The notes below the pieces were generated by a model. The model had not been told where the DNA came from. It made no database searches and saw nothing but the letters and a program-made list of their open reading frames with translations. The position numbers and the translations under genes were made by a program. A DNA stretch of 41,808 nucleotides from Anaerolineae bacterium (GTDB taxonomy: Bacteria; Chloroflexota; Anaerolineae; B4-G1; SLSP01), in contig JALOOJ010000009.1 in the NCBI GenBank assembly GCA_025454475.1, forward strand, positions 1 through 41,808, read 5' to 3'. The stretch's first letter is position 1. Every line of letters begins with the position of its first letter. Shown piece by piece: positions 30,348 through 32,816 of this stretch.

Positions 30348-31937
30348 CTACCGAGCCGCCTCAATATCTCGCGGGAAGAGCGGTTCACCGGTGACGACGG
30401 CGTTCCCCGGCTGCAGCATTCCCCAGACGAGGTCCTCGCGTTGTTGAGGGTGTTCCCCCAACCCCAGCGATCGCTGTAGAACGGTCATCCGCTCGGGCAT
30501 TACCGGGTTCAGCAGCACCGACGCCAGCCGCAACGCCTCGGCTGCCGTGTAGAGTATCGTGGCCACGCGCGCTGTCTCGCCCGCCTTTGCGCGGAGCCAG
30601 GGCGCCGTGGTCTCCAGATAGCGGTTGATCTCACGCACTAGTTCAATTGCGAGCGCCAGTGCATCGTTGACCAACAACGCCTCTACCGCCTCAAGGGTGG
30701 GACCAATGACGGTCTCGGCCTTTGTCCGCAGCGCGGCATCCACGTCTGTCTCCGCGTCGGGTGTAGGAACCTGTCCGCCGCAGTAACGCCCTATCATCGT
30801 CACAAGGCGACTCAGCAGATTCCCAAGGTCGTTGGCGAGGTCGGATCGGTAACGCGACGCTATCAGGTCGAGGTTGAAACTGGCATCCCGCCCCGGCGTC
30901 ATCTCGCGCATCAGGAAATAGCGGAAGGCATCGACACCGTAGATGTCAGCCAGGTCCAGCGGTTTCACGACGTTGCCAAGGGACTTGGACATCTTGATAC
31001 CCTCCACGTTCCACCAGCCGTGGGCAAAGATCATCCGCGGCTGGGGCAGACCCAACGCATGCAGCATTGTGGGCCAGTACACGGCGTGCGTGGTCAGTAT
31101 GTCTTTGCCAATGAGGTGGACACAATGAGGCCATAGGGCAGCCAGACGGGAATCGCTCTCCAGGAGCCCCCTACCCCAGTCCTCCCCCTTGACCACAGGA
31201 ATGGGCAAAGGGGAGGGAGTCAGGGCTGCGGTGACGTAGTTGAGCAGCGCGTCGAACCAGACGTAGGTGACGTACTCCGGGTCGAAGGGCAAGGCGATGC
31301 CCCAGGAGAGACGATCGATCGGCCGGCTGATGCATAGGTCGCCGAGCAGTTGCCTGAGGAACCCAAGCACCTCGTTGCGGCGCGTCTCAGGCCGGATGAA
31401 CCCCGGATGGGCCTCGATGTAGTCCACCAGCCAGTCCTGATAGGCGCTCATTCGGAAGAAGTAGTTCTTCTCGGCGAGCCGCTCAACCGGGCGCCCGCAA
31501 TCGGGGCAGAGGCCATCGACGACGTCCTTGTCGGTCCAGAAGCGCTCGTCGGGCACACAATACCAGCCCTCGTAGACCCCGGCGTAGATGTCACCCGTCT
31601 CCCACAGCGCCTGCAGCGCGGACTGAACCACGCGGACATGGCGTGGTTGCGTCGTACGCAGGAAGTCATCGTTGCTGATGTGCAGTCGATCCCACGTCTC
31701 CTGAAACCGCATGACCATTGCATCAGCCTGCTGCTGCGGGGTGATCGCTCGCTCACGTGCCGCGCGCTCGACCTTCTGCCCGTGCTCGTCGGTCCCGGTG
31801 AGGAAGACGGTGTCATCGCCCCGCAGCCGGGCATAGCGAGCCAGCACATCGGCCAGCACAGTGGTGTAGGCATGGCCCAAATGCGGCTCGTCATTAACGT
31901 AGTAGATCGGCGTCGTGATATAGAACGGGTCGTTCAT
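30348..31937 (-). CDS. metG: Methionyl-tRNA synthetase
   Basis: A 529-residue class I synthetase that charges tRNA-Met. HLGH at residues 19-22 is the HIGH motif and KMSKS lies near residue 315. One CPDC zinc knuckle is seen in the connective domain (around residue 145). The C-terminus is the helical anticodon-binding domain, without the tRNA-binding EMAP-type extension. Between VWFDALLNYVTA and HLIGKDILTTHAVYW there is an insertion of about 20-25 residues (LTPSPLPIPVVKGEDWGRGL) at a place where relatives have a short loop. Its DNA is an imperfect inverted repeat. GGGAGGGAG precedes the ATG. Upstream lies a Met-rich leader open reading frame with a terminator and candidate antiterminator. Confidence 0.96.
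   Translation of the reverse strand: MNDPFYITTPIYYVNDEPHLGHAYTTVLADVLARYARLRGDDTVFLTGTDEHGQKVERAARERAITPQQQADAMVMRFQETWDRLHISNDDFLRTTQPRHVRVVQSALQALWETGDIYAGVYEGWYCVPDERFWTDKDVVDGLCPDCGRPVERLAEKNYFFRMSAYQDWLVDYIEAHPGFIRPETRRNEVLGFLRQLLGDLCISRPIDRLSWGIALPFDPEYVTYVWFDALLNYVTAALTPSPLPIPVVKGEDWGRGLLESDSRLAALWPHCVHLIGKDILTTHAVYWPTMLHALGLPQPRMIFAHGWWNVEGIKMSKSLGNVVKPLDLADIYGVDAFRYFLMREMTPGRDASFNLDLIASRYRSDLANDLGNLLSRLVTMIGRYCGGQVPTPDAETDVDAALRTKAETVIGPTLEAVEALLVNDALALAIELVREINRYLETTAPWLRAKAGETARVATILYTAAEALRLASVLLNPVMPERMTVLQRSLGLGEHPQQREDLVWGMLQPGNAVVTGEPLFPRDIEAAR
31181..31216. repeat. Palindromic insert within metG
   Basis: CCTCCCCCTT (31181-31190) and AAGGGGAGG (31208-31216) are inverted arms with one extra base in the first. 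The whole low-complexity patch spans about 31160-31230. It is translated in frame as SPLP-rich sequence, like small palindromic elements that insert into coding sequence in other bacteria. Confidence 0.55.
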
Positions 31938-31972
31938 CGCTCTCCCTCCCTAGTCACGTCAGATAACGGAAA

Positions 31973-31994
31973 GCGCCTCCCTTGCGGGAGGCGC
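31973..31994 (-). terminator. Attenuator terminator of metG
   Basis: On the minus strand GCGCCTCCC, tetraloop GCAA (a GNRA loop), GGGAGGCGC: a perfect 9-bp, mostly G-C stem followed by TTTCCGTT. It lies 36 nt before the metG ATG and 33 nt after the leader open reading frame stop. Formed in the transcript, it should stop polymerase before metG. Confidence 0.75.
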
Positions 31995-32042
31995 CTGGTA
32001 GTTCTCGAACATCCGAGCAGTAGACGGTCAGACCCACCCCAA
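31982..32042 (-). promoter_or_regulatory. Candidate antiterminator pairing in the metG leader
   Basis: Leader codons 26-28 (TTG GGG TGG, 32042-32034) can pair with CCTCCCGCAA (31991-31982), the 5' arm and loop of the terminator. This gives eight base pairs with one bulged G and one U-U mismatch. Pairing here would destroy the terminator. A ribosome at the leader stop codon would cover the first strand; one stalled at Met codons 11-19 would leave it free. Confidence 0.55.
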
Positions 32043-32117
32043 CGCATCACCGCCATGGCTCATCACCATGGCCCTGGGCATCATCATGGCAGTCCGGGCG
32101 ACCACGTAGGTGTTCAT
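32028..32117 (-). CDS. Met-rich leader peptide of metG
   Basis: A 29-residue open reading frame with ATG at 32117-32115 and TGA at 32030-32028. Met is found at positions 1, 11, 12, 13, 17 and 19: three consecutive ATG codons, then ATG GTG ATG. AAGGA lies 9 nt before the start, directly after the predicted transcription start. Codons 16-22 also form a 7-bp hairpin, GCCATGG/CCATGGC (32072-32066 and 32058-32052). The density of Met codons, the position right after a promoter and the terminator that follows are what an attenuation leader of a Met-responsive gene should show. The peptide itself probably has no function. It was too short to be called as a conventional gene. Confidence 0.75.
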   Translation of the reverse strand: MNTYVVARTAMMMPRAMVMSHGGDALGWV

Positions 32118-32137
32118 CCGTTCAGGTCCTTGCTCGT

Positions 32138-32146
32138 AGTATAGCA
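32138..32146 (-). promoter_or_regulatory. Extended -10 promoter of the metG leader
   Basis: TGCTATACT on the minus strand (32146-32138). Predicted start near 32131, only about 14 nt before the leader peptide ATG. The -35 region is weak but holds GTTTG-N6-CAAAC, a possible operator. Confidence 0.6.
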
Positions 32147-32253
32147 TAGTTTGCGTCGCCAAACGCGCTGGTTTCCACTGGTTCCATAGACAGCGATTGG
32201 GATCCCGGGATCTGCGGCATCACGGCAATCGGCGCCATCAGCAATACTGTTGT

Positions 32254-32281
32254 TTGACCCGCCCCAATATCGCTGTACTGT
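32254..32281 (+). promoter_or_regulatory. Promoter of the C_GCAxxG_C_C gene
   Basis: TTGACC (32254-32259), 16-bp spacer, TACTGT (32276-32281); transcription would start about 25 nt before the ATG at 32313. Confidence 0.45.
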
Positions 32282-32312
32282 GGTTCAGACAACGACCATG
32301 GAGGGCACCCTT

Positions 32313-32816
32313 ATGAGTTACGAATATCTTCGAGACCTCATCGCCAGCGAGGCTGAGGCCCGCATGCGCCAAGGTTTCCACTGCTCAGAGGCTGTGCTCA
32401 TGACTTTGGGGCCCTACGTGACGCAGCCCTGGAACCCGGCCTGCATCCGGCTGGCAACGGGGTTTGTCGCCGGCATGGGCGGCACGCGCCAGGATGTCTG
32501 CGGGGCACTGGTCGGCAGCGTGATGGTCCTCGGGGCAGCAGCGGGACGCAACACCGTGGCAGACGACGGCAGGTTGAGGCGCCTCGTGGCGCGTTGTCGC
32601 GATCGCTTCCTCGACGCCTTCGGCACGACACAGTGCGGGCAGATTCGAGAGGCGATCATCGAGATCGACGGTGGACCCGGTACGTGTGCACCGCTCGCGG
32701 GCCAGGTGGCGGGGATGTTGTGGGACCAGCTTGTCGAAGCAGGGCTTGTCATGCAGGATGGAACCGATCTCGGTGTCGATGAGCTAGGGAGAGGACAGCA
32801 ATATGACATCACCTGA
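32313..32816 (+). CDS. C_GCAxxG_C_C family redox-active protein
   Basis: A 167-residue protein with the signature of this family: an early CSEAVL, GFVAGMGGTRQDVCGALVGS carrying the CGAxxG core, then spaced single Cys residues (ARCRDRF, TTQCGQI, PGTCAPL). The family was named for these conserved cysteines, is thought to bind a metal cluster or act in thiol redox chemistry, and has no proven substrate. The start at 32313 follows GGAGG at about 8 nt; the longer upstream frame has no similarity. Its end overlaps the start of the next gene by 14 nt, so the two are co-expressed. Confidence 0.82.
   Translation: MSYEYLRDLIASEAEARMRQGFHCSEAVLMTLGPYVTQPWNPACIRLATGFVAGMGGTRQDVCGALVGSVMVLGAAAGRNTVADDGRLRRLVARCRDRFLDAFGTTQCGQIREAIIEIDGGPGTCAPLAGQVAGMLWDQLVEAGLVMQDGTDLGVDELGRGQQYDIT

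Follow-up and report, generated by a model that had tools for sequence, protein, structure and literature searches.

On the minus strand of the window (the whole stretch of DNA that was analysed, 41,808 nucleotides), the methionyl-tRNA synthetase gene, metG, is preceded by an extended -10 promoter element, a putative ribosome-binding site, a short Met-rich open reading frame and a terminator hairpin (Table 1). The start of metG lies approximately 90 nucleotides from the stop codon of the leader, with the terminator in between. The terminator, GCGCCTCCC-GCAA-GGGAGGCGC at 31994-31973, has a perfect 9-bp stem, or 11 pairs when the outer A-T and G-T are included, and is followed by a poor T-tract, TTTCCGTT. 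The extended -10 element, the AAGGA sequence and the 29-codon reading frame with Met at codons 11, 12, 13, 17 and 19 that were given in the preliminary description were all read directly on the minus strand, and the pairing claimed between 32042-32034 and 31991-31982 is present, with eight pairs, one bulge and one mismatch. The perfect 9-bp terminator with a GCAA loop described just before metG was also found, but the tail, which had been called T-rich, is weak and imperfect.

Table 1. Elements of the metG leader and the downstream gene in the window.
Feature	Position	Strand	Basis
Extended -10 promoter element, TGCTATACT	32138..32146	minus	sequence
AAGGA, putative ribosome-binding site, ATG 9 nt downstream	32127..32131	minus	sequence
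Leader reading frame, 29 codons and TGA, peptide MNTYVVARTAMMMPRAMVMSHGGDALGWV, ATG at 32117	32028..32117	minus	sequence
First regulatory cluster, Met codons 11-13	32079..32087	minus	sequence; Met cluster at the matching place in all seven leaders
Second regulatory cluster, Met codons 17 and 19 (ATG GTG ATG), within the inner hairpin	32061..32069	minus	sequence
Strand 1, predicted partner of strand 2 (32051-32031) in protector helix 1:2	32097..32115	minus	duplex and MFE predictions
Inner hairpin, GCCATGG-TGATGAG-CCATGGC	32052..32072	minus	pairing and compensatory changes in metG leaders
Strand 2, GTTGGGGTGGG, antiterminator strand immediately 5' of the stop codon	32032..32043	minus	conservation, family covariation
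Strand 3, terminator 5' arm AGGCGCCTCCC and loop GCAA, complement of strand 2	31982..31996	minus	sequence, folding
Strand 4, terminator 3' arm GGGAGGCGCTT, then imperfect T-tract to about 31963	31971..31981	minus	sequence
metG, methionyl-tRNA synthetase, 529 aa, controlled gene	30348..31937	minus	NF008900 methionine--tRNA ligase, 664 bits

The listed anatomy upstream of metG is real and goes beyond chance. Only two of the 442 reading frames of 20-45 codons in the window have at least four internal Met, and the leader, with five internal Met in 28 residues, is one of them, while perfect GC-rich hairpins of at least 9 bp occur just twice on the minus strand in 41.8 kb. A consensus scanner called neither a promoter (there was no -35/-10 pair) nor a terminator at the leader. 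The divergent neighbour of the leader, at 32250-32816 on the plus strand, encodes a protein resembling the C-GCAxxG-C-C family, slightly under the NCBIfam cut-off.

Leaders of the same plan were present in six further Chloroflexi genomes, directly before metG in five and at the end of a contig in the sixth. Thus, the conserved Met-rich reading frame that the preliminary description had proposed to look for in relatives occurs at six loci with metG, the window included, and at one contig end. The nearest metG relative, L009 (Chloroflexi bacterium UR.bin234), has the leader MNAYTPVRTSMMMRRAMVMSHGHGALGRD, in which 24 nucleotides, AGGGCCATGGTGATGAGCCATGGC, are identical to the window. The other leader peptides are MNGSAYLNAMSMWSAMAMGHGFPALGSR in G015, (V)IHLHSLANGMMMRSAMVNSHGYSPLGRT in G049, MSRESTPMMAMVNAVAMRHGGLMLGRTL in L010/G551, a genome outside the class, MDKGQVSSSVLMMCSAMAIHHGYLALGRNRVS in G028, where the downstream metG was named by NCBIfam, and MKRSAALSFCMMMRSAEVVSLGCGALGGE in G006, where the contig stops 58 nucleotides past the model match and the downstream gene lies beyond it. 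The reading frames of the relatives have 28-32 codons, the C-terminal sequence SHGxxxLG is partly conserved across the metG leaders, and a GC-rich terminator stem of 9-11 bp lies 3' of the reading frame in 7/7 leaders, before metG wherever that gene is visible. The MetG proteins of the relatives carrying the arrangement are 57-78% identical to that of the window. The sequence TGnTATnnT was found 18-38 nucleotides 5' of the leader start in L009, G015, G049, G028 and G006, and in a weak form in L010. In G015 (L090) and G006 (L122) this extended -10 element is just 18 nucleotides from the ATG, so the RNA from which the leader is translated may be almost leaderless. A perfect long inverted repeat, CCATCCCGAAAGCT-GAG-AGCTTTCGGGATGG, lies between the terminator and metG of G015 (L090:1451-1482).

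G075 and G135, members of the class with this type of MetG (55-56% identity), have no such leader, and none was found upstream of metG in relatives from other phyla. An automated search upstream of 80 metG relatives found a Met-rich reading frame together with a terminator in L009 and L010 only, and a Met-containing reading frame without a terminator in three more. A covariance model, R1, built from five metG leaders, was used to search 396 genomes from the class and 301 from the phylum; its weak matches L133, L136 and L138 were set aside, being inside genes or without a fitting leader.

The seven metG-type leaders were aligned (alignment A3). The inner hairpin, GCCATGG/CCATGGC, was paired in all of them, with double compensatory changes at two base pairs (CCGTGG/CCACGG and CCGAGG/CCTCGG), and it stayed paired despite amino acid changes in the leader peptide. 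The covariation score of the hairpin and terminator together was reached by 3 of 500 shuffles. Helix 1:2 was predicted in 7/7 leaders, at -15.9 to -25.8 kcal/mol, with a marginal result when self and non-self pairings were permuted (331/5040). The complementarity of strands 2 and 3 was present in all seven as well: the sequence TTGGGG near the stop codon is invariant in the metG set and complements the 5' arm and loop of the terminator. The pairing extends to ten contiguous pairs in G015 and to twelve, with wobbles, in G049, while the window and L009 pair less well; the value for the window, -16.2 kcal/mol, is weaker than those of G015, G049, G006 and L010 (-19.6 to -21.0 kcal/mol).

Very probably, the arrangement attenuates transcription of metG by a ribosome-mediated mechanism in which charged methionyl-tRNA is sensed. 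Transcription would begin shortly 5' of the 29-codon reading frame, with a ribosome following the polymerase. When Met-tRNA is scarce, the ribosome would slow at Met codons 11-13 (or 17 and 19), disturbing helix 1:2 and the inner hairpin and leaving strand 2 available for pairing with the emerging strand 3, so that the terminator would not form and metG would be transcribed. When Met-tRNA is plentiful, the ribosome would reach the stop codon, directly past strand 2, and cover that strand, so that the 3:4 terminator would form. If the leader were not translated, the favoured end state would be helix 1:2 together with the terminator. This scheme is in essence that of the preliminary description, in which stalling at codons 11-19 leads to the antiterminator and a ribosome at the stop leads to the terminator, and the anatomy, the conservation, the covariation of the inner hairpin, the match between amino acid and gene and the predicted folding all argue for it. 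We infer stalling, termination in vivo, a response to Met and a kinetic win of pairing 2:3 over 3:4.

The effect of a ribosome on the leader was modelled by folding the nascent RNA to the end of strand 3, with the bases up to the leading edge of the ribosome barred from pairing. Placing any Met codon in the A site gave approximately 7.8 expected 2:3 pairs for the window leader, against none with the ribosome at the stop codon, where strand 2 ends. The same behavior was predicted in 6/7 leaders (window, L009, G015, G049, G006 and L010, with an exception at Met 23 of L010, which is close to strand 2), and in G028 pairing 2:3 formed only with the ribosome at the third Met. Folding with and without the ribosome-masked segment, as the preliminary description had suggested, is therefore consistent with the scheme in six leaders and, at the third Met only, in G028. 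A mask that reached 12 nucleotides past the first bases of the stop codon abolished pairing 2:3 in all seven. Once strand 4 was present, the terminator was favoured at equilibrium in every state of all the leaders, so antitermination must be kinetic. The untranslated nascent RNA of the window, G015, G049 and L010 also formed pairing 2:3, and the model consequently does not assure termination without translation, the default off-state.

R1 and a pattern search also located leaders of the same plan, rich in Leu or in Ile/Val, before ilvB, ilvD, ilvE, leuA and leuS, including the leuS of the window genome. The pattern search was positive in 83/396 genomes, while a reversed-pattern control gave approximately 20 genomes by our count; matches in C-rich repeats (e.g. 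G112 and G241) were disregarded. One gene each of ilvD, ilvB, leuA, serA, thrC and ilvE, two of leuS and the metG of G028 were named by NCBIfam, and the others by sequence resemblance to these. Examples of the leader peptides are MQHLTVTPSAIIISLILVGLLLVQELMAVGRNPI before ilvD and MTPKTLLNLLSNLLLLTRGHWRLGRYRS before leuA. The leuS leader of the window genome (L005:945-1107, G000:C28) encodes MTPNIDYSARLQRQLLLAGWSHCRVGRR, has TGnTATnnT 42 nucleotides before it, and contains CGTGGG, which complements CCCACG of the terminator 5' arm and loop. With leader start codons picked by eye and the leaders counted not being independent, metG leaders had 15.4% Met among their internal residues and the remaining leaders 0-1.5%, Leu made up 20-30% in leuS/leuA leaders, and Ile and Val together made up 25-26% in ilvB/ilvD leaders vs 5-7% in leuS/leuA leaders. 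As a control of amino acid specificity, this result favored the attenuator: leuS/leuA leaders are Leu-rich, ilvB/ilvD leaders are Ile/Val/Leu-rich, and Met is far commoner in metG leaders than in the others.

Strand 2 occurs in all three reading frames across the family, so it is not conserved for the sake of the peptide. The sequences of strand 2 and the terminator are nearly constant across the different amino acids; the searches selected for both, so attenuators with other terminators would have escaped them and the uniformity comes partly from selection. The preliminary description had looked to a covarying terminator and antiterminator. Across the wider family, strand 2 fits its own terminator loop better than those of other members (permutation p = 5e-5; 31 distinct family members), a value that is optimistic given the relatedness of the members and the choice, for each leader, of the TGGG that paired best as strand 2. 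Inside the metG set, pairing 2:3 is conserved and there is no covariation beyond conservation (permutation 4325/5040), so this expectation held for the family and not for the metG leaders by themselves. The preliminary description did not include the covarying inner hairpin, a possible protector helix 1:2 or the membership of a family that also lies before the leuS of the same genome.

A few leaders of the family were of other composition. Those at L227 and L228 (about 1480-1640), MAQRISMSMPTAPMAGPATRLGG and MALMPIPPMPIAPIPGLKARSGG, contain several Met and lie before threonine synthase or an apparent threonine synthase; they are candidate sensors of Met, Thr or Ile. A Thr/Ser-rich leader of the same plan, SVNGTTTTSSTTCRGR, precedes serA at L148:480-660 (G049:C72). 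At L229 and L232 (minus strand, about 1500-1625), Ala-rich leaders, NASAAAAPLPRLCVLGRT and NLTAAAALPGLCILGRT, with the same terminator plan precede a gene that had no NCBIfam match and resembles a methyltransferase; these two are possibly an Ala-specific attenuator.

Other accounts of the locus were weighed against the attenuator. A leader that is translated but acts in another way, by stalling of the ribosome on the nascent peptide or by re-initiation or translational coupling to metG, would be in keeping with the partial conservation of SHGxxxLG at the C-terminus. However, what is conserved in strand 2 is the RNA, which members of the family read in three different frames, the pairing of the inner hairpin survives amino acid changes, and the stop codon is separated from the metG start by some 90 nucleotides that include the terminator, all of which makes this account improbable. 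Slightly less probable again is control of metG by a metabolite- or tRNA-binding RNA (an S-box, another SAM riboswitch or a T-box), with the small reading frame being incidental. Such control is common for methionine genes in the case of S-boxes and T-boxes, and T-boxes are present elsewhere in the window genome, but Rfam gave no match in the leader to the T-box (RF00230), SAM riboswitches or other families, either at the gathering score or with E relaxed to 10. Moreover, conservation falls on the Met codon cluster, the inner hairpin, strand 2 next to the stop and the terminator, and the amino acids of the leaders track the downstream gene across the wider family.

The least likely account is coincidence, that is, the plain terminator of an unrelated transcript next to a short reading frame that happens to have several ATG codons. 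ATG-rich short reading frames do occur, as the second of the two in the window illustrates, and the T-tract is imperfect. Several observations stand against coincidence, 1) the same arrangement occurs in seven genomes, one of which (L010/G551) is outside the class, 2) the divergence among the relatives excludes copies of one sequence, 3) there is covariation, and 4) leaders with matching amino acids precede other genes. In addition, because the neighbouring gene upstream points the other way, no transcript arriving from upstream on the minus strand has an obvious need for a terminator.

Leader-peptide attenuators of synthetase genes have been described for trpS and leuS of Streptomyces (PMC1262725), for pheST (as cited within PMC1262725), for hisS in bacilli (PMC2965389) and for cysS in Rhodobacterales (uORFC-8-2; PMC8632094). 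Like the metG leader, they have a short reading frame rich in the cognate codon, and a terminator with an alternative antiterminator before the synthetase gene. In these systems stalling due to uncharged tRNA raises expression, and by analogy the metG leader would follow the same logic. In contrast to the metG leader, no such attenuator was found described with specificity for Met or in a Chloroflexi host; no sequence relation to the metG leader was apparent, and the Chloroflexi framework, unlike theirs, is common to synthetase and biosynthesis genes. The classical trp, his, ilv, leu and thr attenuators follow the logic proposed for the metG leader, with strand pairings 1:2, 2:3 and 3:4 and a stop codon positioned so that strand 2 is masked. 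However, the metG leader had no covariance-model match to the Rfam amino acid leader families (His, Leu, Thr and Trp), and the near constancy of strand 2 and terminator across amino acids, partly due to search selection, distinguishes the Chloroflexi family from the classical systems. The T-box (RF00230) responds to tRNA charging, as is proposed for the metG leader, and is a frequent regulator of synthetase genes, but the leader has no RF00230 match and its proposed sensor is the translating ribosome.

Attenuator motifs have been named for His, Leu, Thr and Trp, as well as Ile/Val and Phe (PMC3766115), no conserved RNA structures were seen before methionine operons in Actinobacteria (PMC1262725), and T-boxes were reported in Chloroflexi (PMC3766115, PMC2494555). 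According to PMC2965389, no leader-peptide system was known outside Proteobacteria and Actinobacteria before its own case. Searches of the open-access literature gave nothing relevant on Met leader peptides or Chloroflexi attenuators, and earlier reports may exist. The evidence thus supports a known mechanism with a new amino acid specificity, in a phylum where a leader-peptide attenuator was not found described. If this is correct, methionine joins the amino acids sensed by leader-peptide attenuation, and such attenuation extends to the Chloroflexota, where only T-boxes and riboswitches were found described.

The shared framework with its swapped codons adds to the interest of the Met attenuator. 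It is conceivable, with a chance that we put somewhat below even, that one ancestral attenuator cassette was copied within the Chloroflexota and re-coded for each amino acid. The strand 2 sequence TTGGGxAG and the terminator GCCTCCC-loop-GGGAGGC would have been kept, while the sensing codons were replaced by those for Met, Leu or Ile/Val and strand 2 came to lie in another reading frame. The cassette would share amino acid sensing with T-boxes in one cell, and its Met version would be the first example of methionine sensing by a leader-peptide attenuator. Similar switches with different sensed amino acids and different frames through the strand amount to natural experiments, which can be used to test the rules that govern codon position and RNA pairing and to re-code the sensors.

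The window genome has a second MetRS gene, beside a sigma-70-like gene (G000:C242), with no such leader, an observation in favour of the attenuator. This second type of MetRS was present in 13/18 genomes tested, including G000, G045 and G006, and had no match in G015, G049, G028 and G551, of which G028 and G015 are only 81-88% complete. These results do not support the view that the attenuated MetG always serves as the spare of two enzymes. In the window genome the switch, being on one of two MetRS genes, may provide an inducible supplement, while other genomes seem to have the attenuated enzyme only. All seven genomes with a Met leader also gave T-box matches, which exceeded the gathering score in five of them; leader peptides and T-boxes thus occur side by side.
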